64,000 nt of DNA from Ceratodon purpureus (Eukaryota; Streptophyta; Bryopsida; Pseudoditrichales; Ditrichaceae). The position numbers and the translations under genes were made by a program. The notes under the pieces were generated by a model, which was given only the letters and a program-made list of their open reading frames with translations, did not search any database and was not told the origin of the DNA. Shown piece by piece: positions 13,835 through 52,342 of the stretch; within the stretch, counting starts at the first letter, position 1, and each line of letters begins with the position of its first letter. Location: NCBI GenBank assembly GCA_014871385.1, contig CM026426.1, positions 59,992,084 to 60,056,083 on the forward strand, read 5' to 3'.

Positions 13835-15700
13835 GGATACTAACTGCTGCTGACTACTAAATGAATGTTGTGCTAACTGATGCGGACTATGGGCTGTCTG
13901 TGCTATGTGAGACGAGGAACACCAATGGCAGGTGCTGCAGGCTGCTGACTGAGTGTAGGAGACAGGGCTGGGAGGAGGGAGATGACCAAGGCGACTATGG
14001 CGACTCTCTAGGAGCCAAGTACTGCGCTGCCAAGGAGCTAGGGGAAAACATGAAAATAGAGAGGGGAGAGAAGAATGGGGAAGGGGAGGAGGAGGAAGAA
14101 GGCGGGTGGCGGCGTGACATGCATGTGTTGCGAGAATTTGGACAGGAGAGGAAGTATTGGGACAGCCTTGGTGGAGAAATACTTGAGCACGGTCTAGCAT
14201 GGAAGGTGGCGGCGGCTCCCTATGGATGCGGATCATAGAGTAGAGTGTAGCTGTCTTGTCTCCATGGAAGCTGGGCTGGTCCATGTCATATGAAGGATGG
14301 AGTAGGATACGGATGTGAGTGACATGGACCTCCATGATGGCTTGGCCTTCCTGGGACTGAGTTGGGGGATCCATGGGGTCTGGTTGTGCACTAATTTCTG
14401 CCTCGGCTTCCAAGTTGATGTAAATTTCTCCTAGGCTCTGTGTGAGAGTTATATTTAGAGACTTGGTGTGGTAATGCTTGAGCTTGGTTGCATTCACAAT
14501 GTTTGCTTGGTTATCATAGTTTTTATTGTTGATCAGTAGTACTGTGTTGTTAGGAAGAACCACTTAGACACGGTGTGGCCCGAGCCAAATTGATTCGACT
14601 TTGGATTTTTGAATTTTTGGATCCCTGGGGCACCATAGTACTTGATCTCCCTTTTGGAATACACGGGGAGGCTAGGATGCTTGGATATACTTGGCACTCA
14701 GTTGTTGTTTGGTAGTGATATTCTTGATAGCCACGGCCCGAACTTCCTCCTAGTGATTGATGTCTTCTAAGTGTGCTGCGAGGACTCTATGTGGTGTGTA
14801 ATCTCGGAGGTGTAAGGATTGGAATGTAGGTGCTACATATTATGTGGGCAGCAGTGACTAAGTTCCATACACCATTTCAAAAGGGCTGATTTTGGTGGCA
14901 GTTTTGGTTGCAACACGGTAAGCCCAGAGGGCGGCTGGCAGACAGTCATTCTAGTCGGATTGGTTGGCATGGATGAATCGACGTAGCATGTTGATCAAGG
15001 TTTTATTGGTTGATTATGCTTGGCCATTTCCTTGGGGGTAATACACCGTACTTGTTTTATGTTTGATGATATGATTGTCTAATAGGTCCTCAATCACTGA
15101 GTTGACAAAATGCGTACCTTGGTATGAGATTATTTCTAATGGACAGCCAAAACAAGTGATAATGTTTTCATAGATAAAAGAGGCTGTTACCACAGCGGTG
15201 TTGGTTCTCAGAGGTTTGGCCTCAACCCATTTTGTGGTGTAGTCGGTTCCAACTAAAATGTATTTATAACCCTTCTTGGTGGCTGGGTGTATTGGTCCCA
15301 CGAAATCTAGCCCCCAACGTTGGAATGGTCCGAGTGGGGGTATGGATTTCAAGGGCACCCTTCCTTGGTATTGGAAATTTGTTGTGGAAATTTGGCAGGC
15401 GTTGCACTTTTTGATGTAGTCATAGACGTCCTTGTGAAGTGTAGGCCACCAGTATTTAGCTGTAAGGATCTTTTTTATGGTTGTGTCTAGGCCTTGGTGG
15501 CCACCTGCGGGGCCATCATGGAGGTGAGTAATAATGTTTTGTTGGTCCTCAGTTGCCACGCACAGTCGAAGTTCCAAGTCAAGGCCTTGGCGGTAGAGTT
15601 GGCCTTGAGATGTCATATACGGCAGCGTGGTTCGCACAAAACTAAATTTTTGAGTACCTGAGAGATGGGCGAGTACGTTGCCCGTGGCGAGGTATGTCAT
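13835..15700 (-). pseudogene. Ty3/gypsy integrase, catalytically broken
   Basis: Integrase inserts the cDNA copy. The zinc-binding HHCC module is present ([12 protein letters not shown], then KCNACQ), followed by the core with WGLDFVGP (first catalytic Asp). The second Asp is Tyr: SYQGTHF at 15122-15124 where the family has S-D-x-G-T-H-F. The third acidic residue is a TAA stop: GQA-stop-STNKTL at 15014-15016 where the family has GQAE. Further stops follow before the C-terminal domain (for example in SD-stop-ND and YGT-stop-SLLP). The C-terminal part includes VLPNNTVLLINN, followed by a Pro/Ser-rich stretch. No strand-transfer activity can be expected. Confidence 0.88.
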
Positions 15701-26233: not shown

Positions 26234-26237
26234 TATG
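26234..26237. other. Target-site duplication, left copy (TATG)
   Basis: TATG immediately outside the left TIR, matched by TATG at 44652-44655. Four bases can match by chance; the perfect TIRs next to it make a true duplication likely. Confidence 0.65.
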
Positions 26238-26264
26238 AACACCATATTCGTTATTTTGGGAGAT
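26238..26264 (+). repeat. Left terminal inverted repeat (27 bp)
   Basis: Starts AACACCATAT and ends TTTTGGGAGAT. All 27 positions match the reverse complement of 44625-44651. Confidence 0.92.
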
Positions 26265-26392
26265 ATTCTTGAATTTGGGAAATCAGCGTGTAGAGAAATG
26301 GCCACATTCGTGCCCTCCCATTTACTTAAATCTTGCGGAAATCAATATTGAAGCATTAAAAACACCTTAAAGGAACAATGAGGTCCATGTCA

Positions 26393-27241
26393 TTTAGGTC
26401 GAGTGGACCTAAATGCACGAACATACAGGAGAAAACTTAGTAATGTTCATTGATTCATTAAAAACATGTTTAAAGAGAGATGATGATTAAGTCATTTAGG
26501 TCGATCATACCTAAACGCAATATAAACAAGGAAAAAGAATATACCACGTCCCCTGTATTTTTAGTAGTAACTATTCGTTACCTTTTCTAAACCAAGGTTT
26601 CAATAAAAGGCAATGTCCAATCACATAAATTACATTCGGAAATTTGAATAACACAAAAAGTGTGCAAGACAATGAGGCAAAAATAGCAGACGAGAAAATT
26701 TGACAAACAGACCAATCGTTTTATTCAAAACATAATTACATTGAAATAACACAGAGGACTCTTATAATCGTCTACATTGTCTGCGCCATTGCTATACAGT
26801 ACATAGTATCCTCTATATGGTAATGGAGTCCCTCCGTAAGCCTCAATTCTTGACTTGACAAATTCCCGTTGGCGCTGACGTGTCCACGACATTCCCTCAA
26901 CCTGCATCATTGGACTATCAAGAAGACGTTGCAACTTCTGCCTACGCCTGTCACCAATGCTTGACTCTGGCAGAGAGTGGCGACGGGTACTAGATGGTTT
27001 AGAGTGGGAGTCGGCGGACTTCCTTGCCCCGGATCCTGTAGTTGTTGATCGTAGCCTTGGCATGTGCAAAGGGGATAAATTAGCATTGGGAAGAGATTTC
27101 GGTTTAGGTCGAATCGACCTAAACTGCTGAGTGCAAGTGTAAAGGTCGAACGGACCTTGAACGAGGAGGCCTACATAAGCTAGAACCAGACCTAGATGAA
27201 AGTATAAAAAGATCAATCATTTTAGGTGGCCTCGAGCTAAA
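26393..27241. repeat. Left subterminal palindromes, TTTAGGTC class
   Basis: Cores at 26393-26413 and 26495-26515 (102 bp apart, inside a degenerate tandem duplication that starts CATTAAAAACA), at 27113-27133 (perfect: arm TTTAGGTCGA, one base, arm TCGACCTAAA), a short relative at 27141-27158, and a hybrid at 27221-27241 whose left arm is of the GGTC type and right arm of the GCTC type. The class recurs near the right end of the element. Confidence 0.85.
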
Positions 27242-27649
27242 ATAAGGACATCAGAATGAAACATCATGAAAGAAACTTACGGGATGAAACATCAGAAAGG
27301 AATGAAAAGCGAATACTGAGGAATGAAAACCAACCTTTGTAGGTGGTGGTGACGGCATGTCCTCCACATTGTTATAAAGAGCACGCTTCGTAGGGGTAGA
27401 ACTCTGTTGTTTCGGAGATAGAACCTGCAGTACGGTCCGTGGCCACATAGGAGAAGGGGATTTCAGGGTCTTGGGAACGGACAGGTTAACCGGGCTGTCC
27501 ACAACCCCTTCGTCTACAGCCATAGTTGAGTAGTCCATCGTGGACTGCGCTATTGCAACGGATTGCAACAGAAGCCCTCTGCTACGTAGAGAGGGCCCGC
27601 AGCCATAAGCATAATTCAAAGAATCCACTGAGGCTCGACATGCATTATC
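26725..27649 (-). CDS. Hypothetical protein of the TIR element, two or more exons
   Basis: Not recognised. An upstream exon runs from an acceptor (TGTATTGCAG|GAT) at 27,649 to a donor (CCTACAAAG|GTTGG) at 27,335, 105 codons, rich in Ser/Pro (VNLSVPKTLKSPSPMW). The last exon ends at 26,725 and contains a basic helix-like stretch (RRRQKLQRLLDSPMM, then SWTRQRQREFVKSRIEAYGG). The acceptor of the last exon is ambiguous near 27,040-27,070; the obvious AG sites do not keep phase, so a frameshift or another site is possible. The intron contains TTTAGGTC-class palindromes. No start codon was found upstream. The charge pattern fits a nucleic-acid-binding accessory protein, but that is inference. Confidence 0.45.
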
Positions 27650-27879
27650 CTGCAATACATAAAGCGAATAGAAACATACATCCACCAATAATTCAGCAAT
27701 GGTTTAGGGTTCGTCGCAAGGGGCAGAATAGATCAAGAAAGAAATATAAACTTTGTATTACAAAAGGAGTAGTCTGGATACAAAGATTACGCAAGTAGTT
27801 AAGATGTACAATATACTAATAGCTCCGCGGCAGTTCAGAAATGTCTATTAACAAAGTAAAGAACCAAAATCATGCCAAA

Positions 27880-29049
27880 TTATGCTCTACGACTGATTGC
27901 CTCGTTAATCTTAGCGTATTGTTCACAGGTAGAACGGTCATCATAATACACTTTCTTCCCGATCGGACGCTCGGCCCTGAATCTAGCGATTGTCCCCACA
28001 AAGTGGTGTAGGTCTACAAGATATGGCAAAATTTTCGACAACAAGAAACGATCATCTGCGGCATCCGCATTCTGGTTGTTCCAAGTGGAGACTAAAAGGA
28101 CATCGTAAGAATTATTCTAACAGTGCTTGATCGGGCTGTCGTCGATAAAAATGGTGTTGGCTTCGGAATATAGGCCACCAAATTTACGAAAGAGACCATC
28201 AGACATCGGCTTAAGGAAGATGTCCTTCTGAGTCCCGTGTTCCTTCATATATACCGGATGACCTCAAAAATCTACGCCCATAGGAACTCTCTGACAGTCC
28301 TCTTGACCTAGAATTCTGAGCGGATAGACAGGACGAATAGGACCGAACAGATAGTCGCAGATCATTTTTGTCGTCGAATTCTTCATCGAACTCCAGACGG
28401 TTATGATTGCGAACGTTGACAACCGACGAAGGAAATCAGCGCAATTGGGCCTGATACAAACAAGCTTGGGGCCCACGACTGCTGGCTTGGACGCTGAGTG
28501 GATGCTAAGGCCATGGCTAACGAATGATTGTCCAAGCCAATTAGGAGTACTGGAGCAGAGTATTCCATTGAGGTCGAGGACAACGTTCAACCAACCACTC
28601 TAAGGTCGCGTCGGGACAGGACTCAATTCTTCACTAGAACTTACGTCACATCCAGATGCCTGGCGCACCTGGAGAGGAAATACCGATGACAGATGGACAT
28701 TACTATATTATACTAGGACGAAGATATACGAATGATACAATGAGGACAGTTGCAAGGCAAGTCATTACCCAAGGAAACAGTGCAACGAGATATAATGATG
28801 GATGAAATACCTGAACATCCTCGGCTTGACCTTCTACAACATCCCGATCCTCCACAGGACCCATTGACCCTAATGAATCCTGAGGTTGATCGTCAGGAAT
28901 GACCTCAACGCACGTTGGCAAGGTCTGTGCACACTGGGCCGTGACATCTAAATCCATATTTGTGCGTACAGGCTCATCCGCAGTTTGGGCCATGACAACA
29001 TCATCCACAATCCGAAGATCGTCCACTTCCTCATGCACTTCGTGACCTG
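27880..29049 (-). pseudogene. FCP1/NIF-type HAD phosphatase-like gene
   Basis: The last exon (27880-28599, 240 codons with stop) has the FCP1-homology pattern: VVLDLNGILC (nucleophile motif, with Asn where classic phosphatases have the second Asp, as in several plant relatives), CADFLRRLSTFAIITVWSS, then IFIDDSPIKH (second Asp motif) and ILPYLVDL. Such proteins dephosphorylate phosphoserine, for instance in the RNA polymerase II tail; the substrate here is unknown. Upstream exons fit in phase: 28645-28668 (8 codons) and 28811 to about 29049 (acidic). In-frame stops are TGA 28264-28266 and TAG 28117-28119. The first exon and start were not found. It lies downstream of the methyltransferase-like gene on the same strand and looks like element cargo. 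Confidence 0.7.
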
Positions 29050-29129
29050 GGCATTGCAAGAGAACTATTGAATCATCAGAGAGTGATCAATGAAGCTGAC
29101 ATAGAAGGGATTGGTAAAAAGTTGAACGG

Positions 29130-29150
29130 TTTAGCTCGGGTCGAGCTAAA
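29130..29150. repeat. Single palindrome between the two minus-strand genes
   Basis: TTTAGCTCG, three bases, CGAGCTAAA. It lies between the end of the methyltransferase-like gene (29,254) and the first recognisable exon of the phosphatase-like gene, perhaps in its 5' region or first intron. Confidence 0.8.
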
Positions 29151-30189
29151 CAGCCCATTTGTATTAATTACAATCGTTTTGGTACAAAATGCACATTTCA
29201 GTGAACTACTTCGGTATTAACACCTCATCTACAAAATTCCGAGTTCAAAAAATCTAAGTTTGGGAGGGACTTGAAGATGTCTCGGGAGCATCTCCCCGAG
29301 TCTGATTGTGGGAGGGAGAACGAGGTGGGCTGGGACTAGGGTCACGCATGACCTGGTCGGTGCAATGATGGCTTGGCTCAGGCACTAATGCGGGACTCGG
29401 ATCCGACATTGGCAATTTTGCACCACTAGTAGGGGATCTCAAAATCTCAAGTACTCGCGGAGAAGGTGGGGCGCTACCTATCGGCTGGACGTTGGGCAAA
29501 ACTGGACCCGCATTTGGGAAAATAGGGACGTTACTGATGCCTCGCAGAGCCGCCTGCACTGTCGCCTGCACAGTCTTCTCTATATCCATTTTCTGCTGTG
29601 CCATCTGATCTTGTAATGCTTTATTCCTATCCTTGGACGCCTGTAATTCTGCGAGAAGAGCTTGAACATCCGGAGAGGGAGCGGCTCTCCCCAACGGGGA
29701 TGCTTGCCGAGCTGTAGGGTTGGGCTTCTTCTTCTTCTGTGCCGGCTTTCCAGTACTTCGCGCACCGCCAGTCTTTCTCCCACTTCCGGATCCCAGCTCC
29801 GGTGCAGAACCCGGTCTCTCATCGTCCGTACGTGTAATGTCGACGTCAGGGAAATCGAGTCTTCTCCCCACTCTACCCTCAGATGCTGTCTGACTTACCG
29901 GATCAGAAGGCGGAGCATCGCTCTCATTGCTAATGTCCGCAGCACTGGAGGAGGGGGTATGTTCCTCGGTGGGGGCATCCTCCTCCATATCAACATCGTC
30001 ACCCTCCTCCACAGCTCTGTCTTTCCCTTTCCGCACGGCTCTGCCATATTCCGGAAAGCGTTCCATATCGACATAATAAGCGTCGACACTAAAATCGGTT
30101 GGGTCCAGAGTTAATCCAAGTGACTGAGCTTCGATCATATGAGACGAGTCACTATCATCCGCGACCACGAAAGCCGAGATCGAGAGCAT

Positions 30190-30325
30190 CTGAAAAAAAC
30201 AAAGACAAGGTAAACAAGGTTTAGCTTGACTCGAGCTAAAGTGTGGAAGTGTGTGCATACATGGTGCATAAGATCAAAACAGTAGAACGATTTAACTCGA
30301 CTCGAGCTAAAGTGTGGAAACTTAC
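30190..30325 (-). other. Intron 3 of the methyltransferase-like gene, with two palindromes
   Basis: The donor GCCGCG|GTAAG and acceptor TTTTTTCAG|ATG join ...MAAA to MLSISAFVV in phase. Two palindrome copies (30220-30240 and 30291-30311, each with one mismatch) are both adjacent to the same word TTCCACAC on the coding strand. Confidence 0.75.
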
Positions 30326-31700
30326 CGCGGCGGCCATGAGGGACTTCGTTCCAGCATAGAGCTGATAAACCGCCCCCCCAGTACTACAGAAAGTGTCGTG
30401 GACCTGCAGGTAGAACTCCATCCTTAACTCGGAAGGGTACATTGCGTACCTCCTTTCGTTGAACTTCCTGTTGTCCTTGTACAGTGGGTGGTCCGGAGTT
30501 GTGTACTTGCTCAGAGGTTCTGGCGTTGACCCGTCGTTCTCAAGTACATTATCATCAATGAGAAACAGGAGTTTGACGGGTTCCATCGCGATTCTGCTCT
30601 TCGGGGGGTGTCCACCAAGTCGCTCGTTAGGAGCGGGTAAATACTCAGAAGGGACTCTTCTACGACCACTCAAGGTGTTTCGCTCCACCCAAGTGAGCAC
30701 CTGGGCGAAGTCCTCATCGTCTCCGCAAATGAGAAGCCAGTGGCGAACATCGTGAAATTGGGGCTGCCCATACTCATCGATCATATTGAAAAACTCCATG
30801 AAGAAGGGGTTCTCCAAAGTGTAGTTATGCCTCGTCTTGTAGTTTGGGAGGAACCGGAAGTCGATGATTCCGAATGTGAGTGCGCCGCACGCCAACCTCC
30901 ATATATCGGAGGGCCAAGATCCAAAGGCGAGTTGAGGCTCCCTGATGAATGGGAGGAACCACATCTCAGCTGAAGGACACTGAAATGCATGTCAAACCTT
31001 CAGGAAGGTTTTGAAGAACTCAACTGCATACGGGGAGAGATCCTTGGCCGACTTCTTACGGAACTGTGTAGCTCTGGAGTTAGTCCAGTACGAGTCTGGA
31101 ATACCCCAATCAAGCAGAACGTGCTTCGACTCCTTGGAGACATAGTAAGTCTTCTTGAAATGCTTCCAAGCGGGTACATCAAGGCCGTCTCTCTTGAATA
31201 AATGGAGCGCTGGATTAATGTTGTTGAACTCCGCTTGAGCTACAGCCTTACGTTTTCTCCGCTCCGCCCACTCCTTGACCGAGTAGCAGTCCTCCAATAC
31301 ACTCGTATTCTGCTTGATGGTAACCTTCGGATATGTGTACTTCCGACTTGGCCCAGACTTATGCAGAATGTGCTTACAGAGCTTCTGGTGATCTGCCTCT
31401 GTCAAGTTCCCGAGCCATTTGAAGAACTCCCTCGGAAGCGTCCCATCCTTGTCCGGAACGAACCCCTTCTTCTCATAGAATTGCTTATGAGGAGCTTCGG
31501 TGTCGGGATCAATGAGTCCACCACATGCCGCAGACGCGATCACCTCCTTCCACAGGTCCCATGTTTCATCACTGGATGTGATGATAAACAACTCGTTTGT
31601 TAGGGAGATAGTGTTCTTCCCTCCCTTCTTCGCCACCATGGCTTGATGCTTTGCCACAATCAATCATAGCGAAGCGCTCCCTGATTGCATTCACGAAGTT

Positions 31701-31900
31701 CTGCATAGGCACAGGAAGAAACCTTAGATGATGCTGTCACGGAACTACTCTTTAGCTCGACTCGAGCTAAATTGCTTGAGTAACACCAGATTATTAAAAA
31801 CAAAGAAGATTATCAATATTTAGCTCGACTTGAGCTAAACTGGAGGTAGTTTAGCTCGAGTCGAGCTAAACTGCTAATGCTAATGAATCTGTGAACTTAC
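31701..31900 (-). other. Intron 2 of the methyltransferase-like gene, with three palindromes
   Basis: The donor ACGAC|GTAAGTTC and acceptor CCTATGCAG|AACTTC preserve phase. Cores lie at 31751-31771 (perfect), 31819-31839 (one mismatch) and 31850-31870 (perfect). Confidence 0.75.
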
Positions 31901-33322
31901 GTCGTACGTCTTCGACGCTGGATTACTTTTTGGACCTGTACTCCTGCGCTCGGCAGCACCAGCGGCAGCATGTTTCTTTTGGGGCTTACCATACTTCACC
32001 CACACTTTTTTGAGGCAAGTATATTGCTCGCCCAAGTTGGCTTAAAGGGTGCGAGATGGTTCACCCGATTATAAAATGCTGAGATCTTTCGTAGCTTATC
32101 TACATCAAGCGTCCAAACAATGTACGCATCCCACCTCCTGAAGTCCCTCACCAACTCCTCACTGGCGTTATCCTCGATGAGAGATTTGGACGCCGCAACG
32201 CTGTGTTGCCCGTTGATGATGTTAAATGTACAACCCCTTAGATCCTCTTCTTGTTGAGGTCGGGCCTTCGTGTCTGGCATCAGACACAGGGTTTGCTTCT
32301 GTGTCCTATCCGGCATGTTGACCAAGTAATTCTTCATCTCCTCCATGCCCCGCTTCTCATATGCACGGATAGTCCAAAGCGCCGGTGCGGGCTTGCACCG
32401 CGTCACGTCCTCACTGAACTTCTTCTGTTGCCCATTCGTTTTGAAGACGAACTCGTCCTGGCAATCAGCAAAGAAATTCTGGTAAATGCGATTGGCATTA
32501 TCGAAGTCCAGGACCTCCCCAACCTTGTTCACCTTCGGAAGTTCCCCGAGAATAGAGTTCAAACTTGTTGCCAAGTCCTCCGCAGATAAGAGCAAGTCCT
32601 TCTTGGGCTTTGGCTTGTCAGTTTTCTTCTCGAGGCCTTTCTTCTTCAATGGCCTTTCTTCTTCGAGGCTTTGGGAAGGAACTATTGCTCTCCCCCTACT
32701 GCGTCCGGTCTGTTGGCTTCCCATTTGGCTCCCGGTTGCTGTCACTCCAAAAACGTCAATATGATATTTTCCAAGGTTCTGCTTCACCTTTGCCTCCGTT
32801 GCGCGGAGCGCAAGGGTGCTGACAACATTCCTCAGTTTCCACGCTAGGGATTTCGCCGGGAGAGTTCGTCCATCTTTGGTTGCCCATTTCCTGTCCAGTA
32901 CTTCTTGCCTCATCGTGGACACTATCTCGTCGTAAGGTGAATTGGACAGACTTTCCATTAAGGAAATGGAGTCGAAGAGGTTCTCTGCTACGTCTACTAC
33001 TATGGAGAAGAGGTATGGATGAGTCCCCATAGATGAGCAGAGGATCTTTATTTGATCTCTCCCCTTATGGTCAAACTCGGTGACCTTTGTATCCATGTTG
33101 ATGACGTGGGGATCATCGACTTCACCCTTGAAAATGGTTGCGAAGGTAAGATATGGGGTGTGTGCAACCCATCGCAATGTCCAATTTTTGACCTTCGAGG
33201 GGTCTTTGAAGGTCCACGGCTCAAATGTGTTTGAGTCATCCCCGTCATCGTCATCTGAATCCGAGATAGGAACAAGCTTGAAGAAATGTTGTAGCGCCAC
33301 AAGTACCCTTGCTTTCTCCTCA

Positions 33323-34071
33323 CTGCAAGGAAGAGACATTTACCATTAGAGAAATTCGAAGCCATTTAGCTCGATTCGAGCTAAATGTTGGTTCTATTAA
33401 AAAAATAACACATGACATCCCAGCAGTTTAGCTCGAGTCGAGCTAAACTACACGGGGCCCTTGGTAGCCCAAGCAGTTTAGCTCGAGTCGAGCTAAACTA
33501 CACGGGGCGCTTGGTAGCCCAAGCAGTTTAGCTCGACTCGAGCTAAACTGCAAGGGGATAATGCGGGACATCCTAGCAGTTTAGCTCGAGTCGAGCTAAA
33601 CTGCTTAGGCTACACGATGGAGCACTCACAATTTAGCTCGACTCGAGCTAAACTGCAGTGGATCTCTCGGGTATGTTTCGGGAAGTTAACCTTTAGTTTA
33701 GCTCGAGTCGAGCTAAAGTGTTAGTTCTCCCATATGAACTCTCAGCAGTTTAGCTCGACTCGAGCTAAACTGTAATTAGATACCATAGTTAAATTGCAGT
33801 TTAGCTCAACTCGAGCTAAACTGCAGGATAGACAGTACTATCTGACTACAGTTTAGCTCGAGTCGAGCTAAACTGAAGCAATTTATTAGTGAAATTCGAA
33901 GTACTTTTAGAGTTTTTATCATGATATTTTTCATTGTGTATGTGAGTTAAGCTCGAGTCAAGCTAAATTGTAGAGCGATAGTTGTCTTCGTCAATCAGTT
34001 TAGCTCGACTCGAGCTAAACTGTTCTTGATTTTCAAAGGATTTTTAACGCAATTTCCACAGTTTGAAGTAC
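33323..34071. repeat. Regular array of 12 palindromes inside intron 1
   Basis: Cores start at 33365, 33427, 33477, 33527, 33580, 33632, 33697, 33749, 33800, 33852, 33947 and 33999. Ten have perfect 10-bp arms (TTTAGCTCGA and TCGAGCTAAA around one base) and two have one or two mismatches. Many extend to CAG...CTG. Distances are mostly 50-53 bp, near five helical turns; 62 and 65 bp occur, and one gap is 95 bp. The central base is usually G or C. The first two spacer units (from 33427 and 33477) are near-identical, so the array grew at least partly by tandem duplication. Intron bounds are AACAG|GTACTTC and TTCCTTGCAG|TGAGG on the minus strand. Confidence 0.93.
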
Positions 34072-34082
34072 CTGTCGGCCAT

Positions 34083-35459
34083 TTTATTGTTATTCCTTCA
34101 GATTCCGCCGTTGTAAAGCTGATCAAACTTGTTCTGCCTGCAGAAAGGAAGGATTTATATAGGTAAGAAAACGATTCGAGAGTTATACAAATGTGTGACA
34201 TCCTATTACCGTATTCCCGAAAAATGCGAAAGTATAAACATATTCTAAGGGGACTGTAACAAGATTGATATCCAAATAATATAAACGGGAACTTCAAAGG
34301 CAATGCAGATGAAGTTGAAATCCAAAACAGAAGACACCGAATATGCTACTGCAATCATAAATTTATTCACACATACATAGACACAGTTATAATTAAACAT
34401 ACATAATTCAGACACGAAAACAAAACACCGTTCACAATGATTTTCAAGTAGAAAGAAATACAAGAAGATTCACACAAGCGCCATTCGAACAGTGAGTCAA
34501 ATAAACAAAAGCGTGTGATTTGGCTTGGGACGAATCTAACAAAGAGGTTGACGGTATTTAATCTGATTTACAAAATCAGATACAATTCTCAAATAGACAC
34601 ACAAAGTTTTTCATACATTACAATTACAGTAAAACAGCGATAATTCACAGATTGTGGTAAATTACAAAAACTTAACTTTCACAAAAGTTATAGCGGAATT
34701 CATTCTAGACACCAGTATGCAATCCACAATACGCATGTATGACTCGATTTGACCTCAAGAAAACCTAAATCCATGCTAGCTTTCGGAAAACAGATTCAGT
34801 TTCGAACTGACGAAGTAAGATTATGTAAACTGCGAACTGATTGAATAGCAAGAGGGGGATCTACTGACCTCGAGGTTGTTTCGAAGACTTGTATTGCGAA
34901 GAAGTCTGCAATCTCCACCTTCCACCGCGACTGTCGAAAGAACGACGCTCCGCACTTCGAAATCGACGTTGTAGAACCTCCGCTCCACGAAATAAAAGTT
35001 GCAGAAATTCAGCACGAACCCAATTGCTCAAAACCTATAACAAACCCACAAATGGTCCACAGACTCGGAGAGGAAAACACCCGCGCAACCACTGTTATCA
35101 AACGAACCCACGAAGTCTTCTTCGCCAGAAACTATTGAAACCCTAATGAAGAACAAACACTGCGGATACAGTATCAAGAAACCCCAGAACCTAAAACCCT
35201 ACTTCTGATCCTCCCGAAACTACAAAACACTGCGAACAGTACAAAGGAAACACTTCAAAGCAACAAGACCCTGACACCACTTCGCGGCAAAAAGAACAAA
35301 CGAAAACTTGAACCGAAACTACACAACAAGAGCGCGCCAGAATGAAAACACACACACAGGAGAAAATGGAAAAACACAGTGGACGAAGTCGGAGTCTGGT
35401 TCCTAACCCTCGCGGGGATCAAAAACCGCGCCGCCAAAACTCGACACCCTTCACTGTGG
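34083..35459. other. 5' region of the methyltransferase-like gene; no other gene seen
   Basis: AT-rich, becoming more GC-rich after 34,860. The minus-strand start codon at 34,082 has a good context (AAAATGGCC). Promoter and 5' UTR should lie here, but I cannot point to a specific TATA box. No palindrome copy was found in this stretch. Confidence 0.4.
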
Positions 35460-36944
35460 GTTCCGTGGCCCGTCCCCGCGGGTTAAGAGTTATGACTTTC
35501 TAACTTCTTATTTGTAAGAGACATATTGATATTTTATATGTGTATTTAGAGCTATTCATTTAGCATATGTAAATTAATTGAATAACATTCTATTCCACGT
35601 AAATTACATACATTTTATGTGGTACACAATTTAGGACTTAAAAGTAGTGATAGTAATAACAATACTGAGGGAATTAAATTTTATTTATTTATTCATGATA
35701 TGCAAATATTAAAAACATTGTATGCCTTGTATGACTGGCATGTAAATTAAACAAATCAAAATCAATTTGATAAGGTTCTACCTTGACCAATGTTCGTACA
35801 AATATGTTATTTCCTTATGAGAAAGTAGATTCTTTGGTTCATTTATATAATAACAAAAAGAAAATTCAAGTTAAATCAAACCTCATTATTTGAATATGAG
35901 ACGTCTTCAAATTTAATTAACATCATAATCCTTTATGATATACGAAGTTAAAATTTGTTTAAAGACAAATTTAATTTTAATTACACAAGATTAGAGTTTA
36001 AATAATAGTTTGTAATTATATTAGGGTTTACTCAAATATGAATACACTATTAGCAGTGAAAAATAATTTACTATACTCTAATTGGGAACATATTTACGCA
36101 AATGTTATCATCATATTATCATTAAAATACATGTTAGTATAATTATGAATTAGAATTCTATTCCAAATAAATTCCATGCAATTTTGAAGATTCTGGTAAT
36201 TCAGAATTCATATACAAGCATGTACATAGATACTGGAATTTAAAAATTTAATTTTCATTACGGAATAATAATTTTAGTTTAATCAGAATCACTGAATGGT
36301 ATTATTTATATTTGTAAGAATTGCGAGTTGAATATTACTGGCCCTTTTTTTATTTCATTTTTATGAACCTGATTCGGGTAGTGAGAAAGTGAAAATAACT
36401 TTTTATAGGAATTTACTTTAAAGATAGATAGTGCGATTCAGTCTCTATATTGTTAACCCCATATGGTTTGGTAAACCTGCTCTTTCTTACCTTAAGAAGA
36501 ATTCACCATGATGGCTCCAATAACTCACATGGGATTGGGGAACCATGACCCTTAATGTGTACTGTGAATGGGGTTGAGGTTACCAACCCAGTGTGAGTTT
36601 CAATGAAACCTAAACAGGATAGGGAACTCGTTTTTTCAGGGTTTTGATGAAATGTATTGGTAATATTTTACAATGCTTCACAACATGCTTGCATTATTTG
36701 AAGTTGGTTTAGGATTTTGATTGTATTTGCATTTATATACATTTCTGAATCTGCATTAGATTTTGATTTTTGATTTTTTTGAATTAACTAAATTTTAATC
36801 AATTCAATAATGCTTCTTCCAATTTTGTAATAATAATTTGTAATTATTTGACTAAGCATCAAATTTAAATACACTATTTGCAATGATAATGAATTTCATA
36901 TACTCAAATTGGAAACATATTTACCTAAATATAATCATCATATT

Positions 36945-37395
36945 CCTAAAGTACATGATAGTATCATAATTTAATTATAATATAATATAATAATATAGTA
37001 TAGTATACCAAGGCACTAATATATTCATTTACAATTTTATATTTAATTATTGATTATGAAACGAGAATAATAATCTATATTCAAGTATATACAAATCTAA
37101 AAATGATATACAAATATATTCAAGTATATATACGAAGTACATTGTTAAAAATAAAAGTATTAAATTATAGAAATCAATTCATTTATTATGGCAAATTCTT
37201 TATATTTTTTAAAAGGTTTATGGTTATTTCTATTTATTCATGAGAAGCGAATATTTAAACCATGGTATGCCTTCTATGATTGGCATTAAATTACAAAAAT
37301 CGTAATCAATTCATTAACGTTGTATCTTGACTAATATTCGTACAATTGTATTACATTCTAATAAGAAAGTGGAATGCTTGCTTCATTTGCATAAT
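36945..37395 (+). repeat. Left arm of large inverted repeat
   Basis: Matches the reverse complement of 38680-39130 over about 450 bp with few differences by eye. Landmarks shared in order are AATATAGTATAGTATACC, GAGAATAATAATCTATAT, TACGAAGTACATTG and GCGAATATTTAAACCATGG. Confidence 0.85.
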
Positions 37396-37980
37396 TTTAA
37401 AATACAAAATTCATAATTCATAGATTCAAATAAAATTTACTACTACATTTATTAGATAGCATGGACATATTAGAATACGAAATATACAAATATGAAAGCA
37501 TCAGATGAAACACTGGTTTTTGTCTAGAAGAACCCTGTTTTGAAGGCATTCCATTCCAAAAATAGTTTACAATCCACACGGGGAACACCATCAGCAAAAG
37601 TTACCAAAAGATGAAAGTCATCTGTTTTTACATCTATGGTTTCCAAATATTGTATAATCTAACGGTCGTGCTAACTACTCCTGAAGTCCCCATTCCATAT
37701 CTGAGGTGATTAGCAGCAAAAGTAAAATTGTAGAAGTATATCGAAGATACCTGCAAGTTCAGGAGCAAAGAGAAAAACAGGATCAGATGGTATGATGTTT
37801 AGGGTTTAAAACGGAAAAGTGAATGTCAAAAGCAAGGACTCATCCTCCTGACAATCAGAACGAACTCAGCATCAGCCATTAAAATTCTACGCAATACATA
37901 TAGCAAACGCAATCTATTATTATGAAAACATCAAACTGAGGACAAGGTTAAGGGTTCTGAGGAGATAACAATTCACCTAC

Positions 37981-38319
37981 TCACTCATGTGGTGGGCTCC
38001 CCAAATCCACGCTCCTCTCCTCATTAGAATCAGCCATAGAGAAGCCCTCGCCGGAGGTGAGGGGAAACTTGATGTTGGAAGCGTTCATAATCTCCAGTTG
38101 CTCTAGACCATGTGCAATAGTCCAATCCCACTCCACACCAGGCTGCATTAGGCGTGCAATGAGGTTCCACGGGGGAATCTCTACGCCGCGACCACGGGCG
38201 CGTTCCACCGCCATAAACCAGGGACGAAGCTCCTCCACTCCTTGTGGGGAAACAACCACCTCCCACTCGTCTGGCGGGTAACTTGACACCGTAGAACCAT
38301 CGCCCGACCTCCTCATCAC
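37981..38319 (-). CDS. Hypothetical 112-codon ORF in the inverted-repeat core
   Basis: Not recognised. It is markedly more GC-rich than its AT-rich surroundings, with protein-like composition (PPDEWEVVVSPQGVEELRPW, then EIPPWNLIARLMQPGVEWDW). It starts with two Met codons at 38,319 and ends SPPHE. The surrounding inverted repeats suggest cargo or a captured exon of a fold-back-type element. It could also be the end of a spliced gene, since ordinary splice-like AG/GT sites flank it. Confidence 0.4.
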   Translation of the reverse strand: MMRRSGDGSTVSSYPPDEWEVVVSPQGVEELRPWFMAVERARGRGVEIPPWNLIARLMQPGVEWDWTIAHGLEQLEIMNASNIKFPLTSGEGFSMADSNEERSVDLGSPPHE

Positions 38320-38679
38320 AGCAAATGAACTACAAGTAGATGAAACAGAAGGGAACTAAGAATGAAACAACTGTTTCGTCGCCCAAAGGAACTTATGCTC
38401 ATGAAGCGGCATGGGCGGGAAGCCGAATGTTCCAGAGTAAGGAAGGGGACTTTGACCAGACTCGGTAACGGGACTTTGACCGATGTGGGCTTTCGAAAGT
38501 CCGGATTTACTTAAATGTGTCATTTTAATTTATTATTAAAGAATTGATTAATGGGATTGTATGCTTAGACAAGCATCTAGAGCCTTTCCCGATATTATAT
38601 ATTAATACTACAATTATAATTATGATCATTGGTTTAATACGTTTCATTTGAATCCATAATTTATGAGTTTTTTTTTATA

Positions 38680-39130
38680 AAATGAATGAACCAAACATTC
38701 CACTTTCTTATTAGAATGTAATAAAATTGTACAAATAGAAGTCAAGGTAGAACATCAATGAATTGATTAAGGTTTGTGTAATTTCCATGCCAATCATACA
38801 AGGCATACCATGGTTTAAATATTCGCTTCTCATGAATAAATATAAAAAACCATAAACCTTTTAAAAAATATAAAGAATTTGCCATAATAAATGAATTGAT
38901 TTCTATAATTTAATACTTTTATTTTTAACAATGTACTTCGTATATATACTTGAATATATTTGTATATCATTTTTAAATTTTGTATATACTTGAATATAGA
39001 TTATTATTCTCGTATTATAATAAATAATTAAATATAAAATTGTAAATGAATATATTAGTGCCTTGGTATACTATACTATATTATTATATTATAATTAAAT
39101 TATGATACTATCATGTACTTTAAGAATATT
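38680..39130 (-). repeat. Right arm of large inverted repeat
   Basis: Inverted partner of 36945-37395. A further, more diverged copy follows at about 39150-39520 in the same orientation. Confidence 0.85.
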
Positions 39131-39900
39131 AGGCTTACATTTAGGTCAACGTACTTTCACCCCATGCCAATCATACAAGGCATACCATGGTTTAAATATT
39201 TGCTTCTCATGATTAAATATAAAAAAATTCAATCTTCTAAAAAACGTATATAATTTGCCATGATAAATGAATTAAATTCTATAATCTAATACTATTATTT
39301 TTAACAATGTATTTCGTATATACTTGAATATACTTGTATATCATTTTAAGATTTGTATACATTAGATTATAGTTTATTATTCTCGTACTATTCTCAATTG
39401 GACATTAAATTGTTAATGAATATATTAGTACCTACTTGTAAATGAATATACAATTATATTATACATATTATAATACTAACATGTATATTAAAAATATACA
39501 TGTTAAGATGTAGAGTTCCAGAAACGAAAGAACAAATCTACACCATTCACGGCGTAAAGAACACATTATGAAATAAATAGAGACATAAATAAAAGTACAT
39601 GAATATATATACATGATAATTATATCTGACTAAATTTGAAGAATAAATAAATAATTCTAAATTTAAAAACATATCTACCAAGGTCTATCAAGAACCATTC
39701 ATGAACTCACATATAATGATTTGATTTCATATATCATATATGATAATGAAATTGAGCAAAAATACATATTTAGTAAATGGAGGTATGAATATTTGCAACG
39801 ATATACTTCCCTGTATCAACCTGACTCACGAAATTCAAATAGGTTCAAACAATTTTTGATTTAATTTTATTCTATGTACGAGATATTTAATGTCCCTAGA

Positions 39901-39992
39901 AATGCCTTAACCCTATACCCTAAACCCTTAACCCTGGACCTAAGACCCTAAACCCTTAACCCTGAACCCTATACCCTAAACCCTGAACCCTT
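39901..39992. repeat. Interstitial telomere-like repeats
   Basis: Runs of CCCTAAA, CCCTTAA, CCCTATA and CCCTGAA units in one orientation over about 90 bp. This is a degenerate form of the plant-type telomere repeat. It sits at the right edge of the AT-rich island, so it may be an element end or a repaired break rather than a chromosome end. Confidence 0.7.
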
Positions 39993-40588
39993 ATAGAGGA
40001 AGAAAAGTTCGCGGCCAAAAGTCAACACTCTGTCTGGCGCTATACGGACTTCCAACCCATCCCATTTGATTTAATGCACCAAATATTTTGCATCTGCATC
40101 TATCTAAAGGGCCGAGAAGTATGGAAAGTGGTAATTCTCGCGCTTTCTCACATCCCGAAATGTGGAGGGTCGAATGGTCATGCATGATTCCCGCCTATTT
40201 TCAAAACTCAAGCGGCATGCAAACGGTCACACGTTAGAAAATGACCTCTGGAATCGTCCCCGCTCGAAGTCTTTTCTCTACTCACTTGCTTCTCTCGCTT
40301 GTAGGAGCTCTCGGCGCTCACTTGGAGGTGGTTGTTTTCTGGGCGGAAGCTGTATTGCGCCGTTTCTCTTGTACGTCTTCTCTTTAGTTTTCTCCGATCA
40401 TCAATACACATCATTGATTTCTGGTTGTTGTATGCTTTCCATTGTTTCAAGTCATGGTGTATTTGCAGTGTCTCTCTTTACTTCTTACAGACGTTTTAGA
40501 GCGGACACCGTAAGCGTACTCTGAGTCTGCGACTCAGAATTCCGAAGATGGAAGCACCTATTAAAGCGCCGCTTTTTGCGGACAGATG
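39993..40588. other. Probable promoter/5' region of the plus-strand DDE-like gene
   Basis: No recognisable gene; open frames here lack motifs. A possible splice donor (ACACC|GTAAGC) at about 40,509 and an acceptor-like TTCCAG at 40,836-40,841 suggest an intron in the 5' UTR carrying the palindromes. This is inference. Confidence 0.35.
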
Positions 40589-40751
40589 TTTAGCTCGAGT
40601 CGAGCTAAACTGCTGCATCCAAAGGGCATCATGAGTTTAGCTCGAGTCGAGCTAAACTTCTGCAACCACATGGCAGCAGAAGTTTAGCTCGACTCGAGCT
40701 AAACTCATGCTGCCCATAGTCCAGGAACAGTTTAGCTCGACTCGAGCTAAA
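40589..40751. repeat. Four palindromes at 47-48 bp spacing upstream of the DDE-like gene
   Basis: Cores begin at 40589, 40636, 40683 and 40731; all have perfect 10-bp arms of the TTTAGCTCGA class. They lie within 260 bp before the start codon at 40,847, so they may act on its expression. Confidence 0.92.
40624..40715. repeat. Large hairpin, 40-bp arms, built from two palindromes
   Basis: 40624-40663 and 40676-40715 are reverse complements with one mismatch and a 12-base loop. Each arm contains a complete palindrome, so the segment can form nested cruciforms. Confidence 0.88.
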
Positions 40752-40846
40752 TTGCGCCTGGGATAAGTTCTCAAATTTAAAGATGAATTCTCTTCAAGGA
40801 GTATAATATGTTCTAATAAAATTGGATCTGTTGCATTCCAGGTACA

Positions 40847-43668
40847 ATGGACTATGTCTCAGATAACGACGTACCGGTTGAAGTGCCCGTAAACCCAGAC
40901 CTTCCTGACTTCGTGGTTGTACCCTCAAGACAATGGCAAAACAAGACTGTAACAATATATAGTGACGACAATATCCCGTTAGCAGAGGGTTTGATCCGGA
41001 ACCCACGGTCCAGCTTGGTATCTGACACGGTTGGTCCCCTTGGTGATTCCGTTGTCGTCGTCCAGGTATCACGTTCTTTGGTCAAAGAAGAGTCAGAGGA
41101 TGATTGGAGGTACTCCTTCAAAACGTGGCCTATCAGCCACGTCTATCTGGATGGAGTTAGCCTAGAGCACCATAGTCAACGTGATGTGTATAACCGTTGG
41201 GTTGCGGAGCATAACCGATCCCTGGGAGATCGTACCCGATCGTATGATAACTCCTCTAGGAATGCCCCCCCACCTATATCACGTCACGCTGAGTTTCTGA
41301 TGACCCAGCCATCAATCAACTCTGTAGCGGCAAACACGTGCTGCGCTCACCTATGCGTCCAACACTATCCCAGAGATAAAATCTCTACTCTACGGTCGCG
41401 TATGTACGACAAGACCACAGTGCAGTTCCGTAACCACATAAAACTCGACGTGCATAGACAGTTCCACAAGAATTCAGCGAGGAGGAGTGTGGTGACTCTG
41501 GAGGGCATAGATGTTTGTTCCTTCGCCTGGATGAAGATTATGGGAGTGAGCTCCAGTACATTTTATAGAAATGCCAAGTATGTTGCTGCTGGTTTCGAAG
41601 CTCAATTTCACGGTAATACTGGTTTACGTAAACCTCGAAATCACAGAGTGGTAGCAACTGCCGTCCTAGGGGCCATCCTTGACAGGCATGCCGACCACAT
41701 GCCCCACAAGAGTCGTGTTCTGCCTTCAGGGGAGACAGTTGTAGCTAAAGTTCTGCCTTCCAGTTTCAAATGGAAGGAACAGATTCCGATCCTCGATGAG
41801 CATTTAGCGGACTGTGGATTGCCTCCTATGTCCGCTTCTAACTTGAGCAAGATCAGGAGGCTTAGCTATCCAGAATATTACGCCAAACGGGCAGGAGACA
41901 ACTTCGCTCGTTGCTCAAAATGTGATGAGTTCCAGTGGCAGAAGAAGTTGACGTTAACAGGATCTCAGGCGTCCCTATTGTGGTCTAAGAAAGTAAGGCT
42001 GCACAATGACTCTGCAATGGCGCATAGGGACTTGTACTACCTAAATCGATTCAGGTCGAAGGCTACTCCGCATGAAGTTCTTACAATTATGCATGACAAG
42101 ATGGACCACTCCAAGACGGCGTCGCTGGCCTTATCCCACAAGGTCAAACACTTAGACGGTCTCATGAAGCTTCCTCTTGCTGTCACGGGAATGCTTGCTC
42201 ATGGGCATGTGGATTAGCGTTACGCCCATTATGGCCTTGACATTTACTCACACGACATTAATTACACGGTTGGATCGTTTGCGAAGCTCCTTCGGGACCT
42301 TGAGTCACCCCCTAAATCCACCTCTAGGGAATTCTTTCAAGAGAATCCTTCCCACCCATTGTATGCCGCGCTTTTGCATGGTTTAGAGATGTGTTTGGAT
42401 CCTCTTGGCCCTCCTCCTGAGGTTCTTGTTGCTGCTAAACCCTTGCCTCCCATTCTTAACGTCCAAATGGATAACGCTGTCAGTGATAACAAGAATAGAT
42501 TTGTATTTTCATTCTGGTCCCTATTAGTCGCGAAGTGTACGTGAATTTCATGCTGGTCGGCCATACTCATGACGATATTGATGCCCTTTTCGGGCGATGG
42601 AGCATGGCTTTGCGGAGGGAGGACTTCCCCACAGTACCTCTCCTCATGAAGTCCTTCATGAAAAATGAAGCAGTACCTACAATTCCGCATCTTATTCAGG
42701 AGGTCCCAGATTTCAAGAAATTCATCGCGGAGTGGATGCTTAATGGCGACGATACGTTAATGGGTCACACTAAAGCTCATCAGTTCAAATTCTATGTAGA
42801 TTCCATAGGATGCCCAGTCATGAAGTATAAAATCTTCTGTCACGACGACGACTGGTTGCCAAAAGGAGATGGTTGTGGCATCAAGTTGTGGAAGGAGGAT
42901 TCAGAAGGTCGATCTTTATGGCCCCGTGGTGTTCCTGGTGCCGTGGCGCCTCGCGAGATGCGGCACCTGCCTGATGTGATTAAGGGCTTGTCGGGTTTTG
43001 TAGATCATTGGGAGAGGCTATCTTCGGATCCAGTCCAGTCCAGAAGAATCTATGAGCCAGTCTCATACTATTGGAACGATGTTAAAGAGGCTCTTTCCAT
43101 CCCCTTTGATGCAGTCCCCACCTTGGAGCATGGTTTCTGGCCATCCACTTGGCTCGCTCATTCCGTCGAAGACGAGTTTCAAGAAGATGGAACTTTGCGC
43201 GAGGAGTTCGCAGAGGATGATCACTTTGTTGGTCACAAACGAGATCGCCCAGGACCGTCGTTCCGTGTTGCGCGAGACCTTTTTGCAGGGTACTTCTTAG
43301 CGCTTTGACCCTGCGATGAAGACGATCGTCCTTTCTGGCTTGCGAGGGCCTTGACTGACCCTAATTCGAACCCTGACCTCCCGAACACGATCCAAGTAGA
43401 GTTCTACCGTCCAATTTCCCGAGATGAAAATGTTTTGAAATTCTATACCGGCTGGGATGTGGATGGGAGACTTCGTTAGGCAGTTGAGAAGGATGTACCC
43501 GAGTCGTGGCAGAGTACTGATGCAGTCATAACAGCTTGGAAATCCAAAGTTAAAAAAAATGTCAACGAGCAGGGCGTTGGCAAGGATCCAACGCTGAAGA
43601 TCCCACTGAAACAACTGGACATTATAAAGGCCTCCTTGGAGAGATTTGTGTCTCCGGATTCTGAATAA
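40847..43668 (+). pseudogene. DUF7869-like DDE-type protein, candidate transposase
   Basis: From the ATG at 40,847 the frame runs through TAG 42215-42217 to a one-base deletion near 42,535, then through TGA 43306-43308 and TAG 43477-43479 to TAA 43666-43668. Adding one base gives exactly 941 codons. The core resembles the uncharacterised eukaryotic family I know as DUF7869: IMHDKMDHSKTA, then LNVQMDNAVSDNKNRFVFSFWSLLV, then FMLVGHTHDDIDALFGRWS. The conserved Asp in each box is what a DDE/D catalytic triad of an RNase H-fold transposase would look like. A Cys pair (CSKC) lies near residue 370. The missing base sits exactly between the second and third boxes. It is the only plus-strand gene of the element and the best candidate for its transposase. 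Confidence 0.7.
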
Positions 43669-43800
43669 ACATGTAGCTTTGAAGTTGGTGGTCTTGAAGT
43701 TCTGAATTTAGTCAGATCGCTTATGTTCGTTTGAAGACGACTGAACTGAATACCGTTCGTCCCTTCATCCAACATTATGTTTTCTAGACAAAGGTAGATG

Positions 43801-44131
43801 TTTAGCTCGAGTCGACCTAATCAGTTATAGCGTATTAGTTCTAGCGTATTTATGTTTTGAATACTAGCTAATTACATATATTTAATTGGAGGGAACACTA
43901 CTTAAGTGTTTAAGTCCATTCCTTATTTATCATGTGTACCACATTATAGGCCACAGTTTAGGTCGAGGCGACCTAAACTGCATTTGGCGTTGAAGTTCGT
44001 ACTTTACGAGTGCGGGATACCAACAGGTCATCTATAGTTCTTTGTGTAGATTTTTACTTAGTACCCTAAAGCGTTGATTCTATATCATATGTACTGCCAC
44101 ATAACAGCCATTTAGGTCGAGGCGACCTAAA
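43801..44131. repeat. Right subterminal palindromes
   Basis: 43801-43821 is a hybrid (left arm GCTC type, right arm GACC type). 43957-43977 and 44111-44131 are of the TTTAGGTC class with 9-bp arms, 154 bp apart, each followed by the shared word GCGTTGAAGTTC. A degenerate hybrid follows at 44582-44602. Confidence 0.85.
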
Positions 44132-44605
44132 CGACATCTAGCGTTGAAGTTCCTAGTTTGGATCTCTGAAGTAGAGCCGATAACATACATTTGTTGGCAT
44201 GGGACTATACTGAAGTCCGTATGTTCTTGGATTGCATATCATACTCTCGAAACTGTAGGCAGCTATGTTAGTCGAACAACTTGATTGTTTGTACAGGTCT
44301 GAAAGAGCCTGTCACGGATTCAACATTTAAGAAGTGTCGACCTAATTTGTATTTCCACACATATATATAATATAAGATTTCCCAGCATATCCGTTGTGTC
44401 CATTTCTTGTTATTTGTTTGATGTTCATTTCGGATGGTTCGACCTACCTTGTATTTTTTCAAATATTTCTAGTAAACCACTACGTTCTTTCATTTCCCAT
44501 TAGTACTGTGTGATCATGTCCCAAATTAATGGAAATTGCTTATAAGCTTTTCCTTGCTAAGTATGGGACCATTGTGCCCATTTTAGCTCGACCTGACCTA
44601 ATGCA

Positions 44606-44638
44606 TTATTTTGGGAGATGATAAATCTCCCAAAATAA
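44606..44638. repeat. Hairpin formed by the inner right TIR
   Basis: 14-bp arms (44606-44619 and 44625-44638) around a five-base loop. The second arm is the inner part of the right TIR. The left end has only a weak counterpart, so the two ends differ. Confidence 0.9.
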
Positions 44639-44651
44639 CGAATATGGTGTT
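44625..44651 (-). repeat. Right terminal inverted repeat (27 bp)
   Basis: Ends GAATATGGTGTT. All 27 bases are the reverse complement of 26238-26264. Confidence 0.92.
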
Positions 44652-44655
44652 TATG
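44652..44655. other. Target-site duplication, right copy (TATG)
   Basis: TATG immediately outside the right TIR, equal to 26234-26237. Confidence 0.65.
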
Positions 44656-51355: not shown

Positions 51356-52342
51356 CCCAACGTTGTCTCAATATGGGACATTGACTTCTTCTATGGCTAC
51401 GTGAGCCACATTCCCAACACGTATCATTGCGGCTAGGCTGGAACGCATCAACATTGACTTCCTCGGGATACATGGCCGCAGTGGTGGGCCTTGGTCGCCG
51501 AGGATCCTCTGGTCGATTGTTTCCATAGGCAAACCAGCAGCGGCCGCTATGTGTTTTGCCACAAGATAGTAGGGGTTGGTCTATTCTCAGGGCGGAAAGT
51601 TGGCAAGGGCAGCAAGGGTGCTTGTGTTTTATTTTAACACACTTGATTCCCTGCTGATGTCATTTGCAGCGCTCAGTATGTCCCTGAGTGTCGTGACACC
51701 ACGGATGACAATGCCATGTTGGATCTAGGGTAAGAGTCCCTTCTTGAACCGCTCACAAAGGTAGTCCTCTTCGGGCCGTTGGTTTAGCTTGTCTGCTAGT
51801 TGTTTAAACCTGTCATAGAAGGTATCCACGGGTTTGTTTCTCTCTTGGGTGATACTTCCTAGTGCTCGGAGGATCTCTGAGCTGGTCTTGAGTTTTCTAA
51901 ATTTATCGAGAAAACTCCTCTCCATGTCTTCCCAACTTGCTTGGGCATTTTCTGTCTCAAAATCTATATACCAGTTGATATGGTTCCCTTGGACTATGGT
52001 TCCAAAAGTATTTTGCAAATCCTCAGGATTGGTGACGCCATTGGTGCGGGCAATGACCTTGTATCTTCTAATGTGCAAGTCTGGATGGCTTGTTTCATCA
52101 AATATTGGGTATGATATTTTTGGGAACTTGGTATATTTGGGGTCGCCATGGTTTTGAGTGGCAGCAGTATGGTTGTCTTGGGGTAGAGTGGTGGATCTTA
52201 GGGCTTCAAGCTGGGCTTCTGAACCCTCTGCAATAGGATTAGCAGCCTCATGCGTTCTGCTATCTTGGAGATTTTGGTATTGTAAGCTTAACATTTCAAG
52301 CTTAGCATTTGTTGTGTTGTTTTCGGCAGCAGGGTCTGTCAT
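51356..52342 (-). pseudogene. Ty3/gypsy gag with CCHC zinc knuckle
   Basis: Gag forms the virus-like particle and binds element RNA. From the start at 52,342 the first 205 codons carry the gag core of plant Ty3 elements (FPKISYPIFDE, NWYIDFETENAQASWEDMERSFLDKFRKLK, DTFYDRFKQLADKL, ERFKKGLLP). TAG at 51725-51727 interrupts it, but the reading continues (IQHGIVIRGVTTLRDILSAAN). After a frameshift a perfect CX2CX4HX4C knuckle is encoded at 51378-51419 (CWECGSRSHRRSQC). A Gln/Asn-rich N-terminal linker is normal for the family. The protease expected next is missing here; a protease of compatible type starts at 17,798 on the same strand. Confidence 0.85.

Follow-up and report, generated by a model that had tools for sequence, protein, structure and literature searches.

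An 18.4-kb stretch of the moss Ceratodon purpureus, at positions 26238-44651 (18,414 bp) of the 64-kb window of DNA analyzed here, is a terminal inverted repeat (TIR) transposon, and it belongs to a cut-and-paste DNA transposon family of this moss with 27-bp TIRs, 4-bp target-site duplications (TSDs) and recent movement. Besides a transposase gene, the element holds numerous short palindromes and a cargo gene predicted to encode a ParB-like domain and a methyltransferase (MTase) domain. We give an even chance to what is, taken as a whole, the best explanation of this arrangement: a TIR transposon whose ParB-MTase cargo binds its own palindromes and regulates the element through them.

The sequence-only reading had enclosed the 18.4 kb between 27-bp inverted termini flanked by TATG, and direct comparison of both ends confirms this. 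The left TIR, AACACCATATTCGTTATTTTGGGAGAT, occupies 26238..26264 on the plus strand, and the right TIR, a perfect inverted match of AACACCATATTCGTTATTTTGGGAGAT, occupies 44625..44651 on the minus strand; identity of the two ends stops at base 28, and the (unstranded) TATG duplications lie at 26234..26237 and 44652..44655. A search of the window's own assembly (362.5 Mb in 151 contigs) with the TIR, allowing up to two mismatches, returned 177 + 179 matches vs none for the reversed pattern, which rules out a chance origin of the TIRs. The left 301 bp of the element matched at 97-100% at all 40 places scored of 188 candidates. As in other cut-and-paste DNA transposons, the ends are common to many copies, and homology in these further copies ends at the same points as in the window element, as judged from the TIR search, from whole copies and from 11 end pairs. 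Identical 4-bp flanks, with letters varying by locus, were present in 14 of the 14 insertions with both ends readable (the window copy, whole copies C6b and C5, and the 11 end pairs); eight of the 30 loci L009-L038 had one readable end only and lie outside this count. The 4-bp duplications anticipated in other copies are thus borne out, and their length is fixed, as is typical of TIR transposons.

Judged from the 356 ends, the family numbers on the order of 180 copies. Among the first 100 listed ends, all exact and paired by eye, facing neighbors formed 31 pairs (62 ends) and 38 ends were unpaired. The span was 17,562-19,867 bp in 23 of the 31 pairs and 26-39 kb in the remaining eight, three of which carry matching duplications; these long pairs were judged from their ends. 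Three whole copies, designated C6b (18,193 bp), C5 (17,562 bp) and C3 (17,590 bp), were compared with the window copy, which is 91-93% identical to them ("copy C3" and "copy C5" denote elements, while "contig C3" below denotes a genome contig). Of 17,560 aligned sites, 57 distinguish copy C3 from copy C5, and it follows that the family moved recently; both keep a transposase frame of 955 amino acids (aa). The MTase exon of copy C5 is interrupted (330 aa open vs 504 in copy C3), and manual reading found a 1-base difference near the end of the ParB exon of copy C3; as such, no copy is claimed to be fully intact. Across three copy comparisons, leaving out the near-identical pair C3-C5, dN/dS was 0.23-0.37 for the transposase, 0.17-0.28 for the ParB exon and 0.19-0.43 for the MTase exon, and the transposase gene is kept under constraint. 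Internal stops were absent from 68 of the 94 scored matches to the ParB exon, a count that considers stops only.

The copies are unevenly distributed. Matches to the ParB exon were scored at no fewer than 94 places (516 candidates), 61 of the 94 being on contig C6 and 33 elsewhere; as contig C6 (110.5 Mb) makes up 30.5% of the assembly, the excess has a binomial p of ~8e-12, although similarity to a C6 copy set the order of the rows. As separate evidence, 60 exact ends lie in the first 56.6 Mb of contig C6 vs 40 on contigs C1-C5 over at least ~108 Mb, and the density of exact ends on the first half of contig C6 is ~3x that of C1-C5. Contig C6 may be a moss sex chromosome, its size being in line with the ~110-Mb sex chromosomes of C. 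purpureus, and the family is possibly enriched on a sex chromosome.

The gene first described as DDE-like (40847..43666, plus strand) is a DUF7869 transposase with conserved D motifs, in which the catalytic residues were assigned by inference. The DUF7869 match has an E value of 8.6e-17 in the window copy, which is decayed (three in-frame stops vs copy C3, and a frameshift near 42541), and of 1.4e-42 in copy C3; the 955-aa protein of copy C3 matches DUF7869 alone at up to E 10, with no match to Transposase_21 over that range. A protein of Physcomitrium patens (P0130) is among its relatives, in keeping with a moss origin.

Reading of splice sites, together with predicted folds, refined the ParB-like/methyltransferase-like gene of the sequence-only reading into one spliced gene on the minus strand, in which model and sequence show a predicted ParB/sulfiredoxin domain joined to a predicted beta-class amino-methyltransferase domain. 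The ParB/sulfiredoxin-like exon (31901..33322; 39 relatives) has the predicted ParB/Srx fold and the amino-methyltransferase-like exon (30326..31700; 50 relatives) that of an amino-methyltransferase; the C-terminal exon (29254..30189) bears VVADDSD, with which it seems to continue the Rossmann domain, and then a low-complexity tail. In the window copy, manual reading placed a frameshift near 32000 in the ParB exon and a 4-bp tandem duplication near 31655 in the MTase exon, which also has a TGA at 30992-30994. In one relative, a weak match to a ParB-like PHROG (E 0.11) falls where the ParB domain is placed. Farther along the minus strand stands an exon like the NIF/FCP1-type HAD phosphatases (27880..28668); the phosphatase-like gene reported earlier is recognizable from the PF03031 (NIF) match in copy C3 (E 3.7e-13), is interrupted by stops in the window copy, and reads DLNG in both where DxDx(T/V) would be catalytic.

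The roughly 31 palindromes counted in the sequence-only reading hold up: 31 odd 21-nt palindromes lie in the element vs 0.95 in shuffles, with 0 and 2 in the two flanks. At up to three mismatches, all 28 window matches to the consensus TTTAGCTCGA-S-TCGAGCTAAA fall inside the element (0 expected), and at up to one mismatch the genome holds 3,199 sites vs 0 for the control. Twelve palindromes of this consensus lie in putative intron 1 of the ParB-MTase gene (33365..34019; these and all others unstranded), three in intron 2 between the ParB and MTase exons (31751..31870), two in intron 3 (30220..30311) and one upstream of the NIF gene (29130..29150). Four more, 47-48 bp apart, stand just upstream of the transposase frame (40589..40751), where the other whole copies have 7-8. 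Toward the ends most sites have a different form, GGTCGA-N-TCGACC: four that are GGTCGA or mixed in type lie close to the left end (26393..27241) and three close to the right (43801..44131), along with a weak one at 44582.

This layout bears on what the palindromes are for. The transposase, or a second protein of transposition, might bind them in the manner of the subterminal repeats of CACTA elements, with the ParB-MTase protein having some other role. The GGTCGA-type palindromes within ~1 kb of both ends and the cluster before the transposase frame favor such an account, which we nonetheless consider rather unlikely, as the majority of the palindromes are internal, in the introns of the ParB-MTase gene, and as they go with the ParB-MTase-NIF module in relatives, in one case where two transposase queries had no match in 22.5 kb. 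That the palindromes act in RNA, as intronic hairpins aiding splicing or as double-stranded RNA triggering or evading silencing, is more doubtful again: many do lie in the introns of one gene, but others lie close to the two termini or ahead of the transposase frame, and these are perhaps untranscribed. The least probable account is that the palindromes are neutral passengers in arrays homogenized by recombination between copies. The size of the array before the transposase frame does vary by copy (4, 7 and 8 sites), but all 30 listed window palindromes fall outside the transposase, ParB, MTase, C-terminal and NIF exons, which together cover 40% of the element, although the palindrome at 27103 falls within an open frame of a small gene. 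Furthermore, divergence at 14 isolated palindromes was below that of their 30-bp flanks, at 8/293 vs 44/760, 2/273 vs 17/753 and 3/272 vs 40/746 (Fisher p 0.04, 0.12 and 0.001, respectively), two of these three tests speaking against neutrality.

Diverged relatives of the module keep the order ParB, MTase, NIF where the ParB exon is 26-35% identical; searching with a 30%-identical protein led to two of them in the same genome. At contig C3:12001-34500 (L047+L045+L048) the three genes lie in order on one strand, with identities of 26% for ParB, 36 and 31% for MTase (in two pieces) and 37% for NIF, along with 16 palindromes of the form TTCAACTCGA-S-TCGAGTTGAA or close to it; two transposase queries had no match in these 22.5 kb and no TIR pair was found there, and the locus is either a dead element or an independent module. 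The same three genes recur at contig C3:22042501-22050000 (35, 38 and 37% identity). Loci L049 and L050 (CADCWO010000269.1 and CADCWO010000243.1) have ParB at 31-32% and MTase at 40%, with NIF at 44% in L050, and carry 8 and 7 palindromes, respectively, of the form TTCAGCTCGA-S-TCGAGCTGAA or ATC...GAT; both loci have them between the exons and past the MTase exon, L049 also ahead of the ParB exon and L050 also farther along, ahead of NIF. Both are filed in GTDB under a Synechococcales cyanobacterium metagenome-assembled genome (MAG), their genes are split as in the moss genome, and they are probably moss contigs misassigned to a bacterial MAG. These matching intron positions, in relatives with ParB exons only 26-32% identical, are a further point against neutrality.

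The inner CTCGA-S-TCGAG is the same at most sites whatever the family; the outer arms differ between families, left and right varying in concert and the dyad being preserved (TTTAG/CTAAA, TTCAA/TTGAA, TTCAG/CTGAA). A dyad kept while its letters change would also fit an RNA stem, but fixed core letters go beyond what a stem needs. In the protein database, 13 of the 39 relatives of the ParB exon (shuffle mean 0.135) and 10 of the 50 of the MTase exon (0.09) carry the translated palindrome core near the protein ends, vs one of the 120 transposase relatives listed of 161 (0.395). Three same-contig cases, a pairing of database relatives that rests on equal contig size and source, join ParB and MTase exons (P0002/P0161, P0004/P0167 and P0009/P0168), and three join a transposase with a ParB or MTase exon (P0022/P0066, P0025/P0135/P0136 and P0097/P0198); we regard both sets as circumstantial.

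Since the palindromes and the cargo gene are conserved jointly, we infer that the cargo protein binds the palindromes, and by analogy with VANC proteins such binding may regulate or de-silence the element. The ParB-MTase-like protein would bind CTCGA-S-TCGAG palindromes, probably as a dimer, at clusters ahead of and within the genes of its own element, and would keep those genes accessible or regulated; the DUF7869 transposase would cut at the TIRs, perhaps with help from the palindromes of GGTCGA type close to the ends. We favor this cargo-protein reading over transposase binding, RNA hairpins and neutrality. Several observations weigh against it. GxRR/GxHR appears in 0 of 25 ParB rows, all 25 of which have N-G/S-Q/E-H-x-V (of N-G-Q-H-S-V type); the MTase motif IV DPPY is absent, with DFRxxP in 30 of 31 rows and [DNS]PP[YFW] in none; and neither domain has a Pfam, NCBIfam or PDB-profile match at a useful E value. 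A role as transposase sites or as RNA hairpins could account for the palindromes equally well; of the three conservation tests, which have lineages in common, one falls short of significance; the sites in the dyad comparison were picked by a dyad threshold; and the locus at contig C3:22042501-22050000 (L046) has only two imperfect palindromes. Because the catalytic motifs of both domains are altered, a standard methylase is disfavored, and the main role of the protein is probably that of a factor for sequence-specific binding or anti-silencing. A bolder proposal, which we hold only tentatively, is that a bacterial-type ParB-methyltransferase was turned into a self-recognition system that loads on palindromes, spreads or scaffolds, and marks or protects the element's own copies; the palindromes would then form a code resembling parS, in which each family has arms of its own.

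The rest of the element is less distinctive. A small uncharacterized gene (26725..27688, minus strand), placed from open reading frames (ORFs) and with an uncertain exon model, has no Pfam match above the cut-off. The AT-rich middle (34200..40100, unstranded) is largely common to other full copies; it holds inverted arms at 37093-37286 and 38787-38980 (194 nt, 98% complementary, 1.5 kb apart) and degenerate telomere-like repeats (CCCTAAACCC variants) at 39905-40003.

As a large plant TIR transposon with subterminal repeats, the element resembles both CACTA/EnSpm and Lanisha, and differs from them by its AACACC ends, 4-bp TSD and DUF7869 transposase without a Transposase_21 match. CACTA/EnSpm, with CACTA ends and a 3-bp TSD, was rejected on these grounds. 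Lanisha was reportedly described from Ceratodon sex chromosomes by Maumus, McDaniel and Carey (Repbase Reports, 2020), a source that suits the present genome with its 110.5-Mb contig rich in the element, and it is the main threat to novelty at the superfamily level, the element being set apart from it by description only. PMC12730594 cites Lanisha as a recent cut-and-paste superfamily and gives its Lanisha/CMCT clade C(2)C and H(3-4)H between the second D and E. After the second D, by our tentative assignment of the catalytic residues, the transposase of copy C3 has two H(3)H strings but no CxxC, and CxxC is likewise lacking at alignment positions 552-600, a stretch covered by 19 of 22 rows; with Transposase_21 also absent, membership in Lanisha seems unlikely. 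Elsewhere in the window, a plus-strand ORF at 5492-6319 matches Transposase_21 (EnSpm/tnp2; E 1.6e-38) and is perhaps another element, of EnSpm-like Lanisha type; minus-strand ORFs at 15014-15700 and 51725-52342 match integrase (rve, H2C2) and gag, as of LTR retrotransposons.

Transposons with anti-silencing accessory genes are already known (PMC12730594 and PMC10398659), as are bacterial ParB-methylase fusions (PMC5512222). VANDAL elements of Arabidopsis (PMC10398659) are also plant transposons with an extra gene (VANC) and expandable arrays of non-coding motifs, and such arrays are present in the moss element. The VANC motifs are said there to diverge fast, whereas the moss palindromes have a fixed core with arms varying as dyads, and the moss cargo is ParB-MTase and NIF; the likeness seen is one of arrangement. 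The TET/JBP transposons of fungi (KDZ and others; PMC12730594) likewise have an accessory gene of DNA-modification type thought to counter silencing, with other cargo, another transposase and fungal hosts. Bacterial Bce_0392 (PMC5512222) also fuses a ParB-like domain to an adenine methylase; the moss gene differs in being split by introns, in residing in a plant transposon, in its altered catalytic motifs and in having no significant match at the sequence level, and it departs from chromosomal and plasmid ParB-parS in lacking the GxRR motif. In the one open library searched, no eukaryotic transposon with these genes together turned up, and the combination may be new, Lanisha having been compared by description only.

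As the palindrome code differs between families, its specificity is testable by arm swapping. If the cargo-protein reading is true, the moss family would add a further type of self-recognition or anti-silencing cargo to eukaryotic transposons, beside the VANC proteins and the TET/JBP enzymes, and would introduce to plant epigenetics the ParB fold, which in bacteria is known from clamps that load at palindromes.

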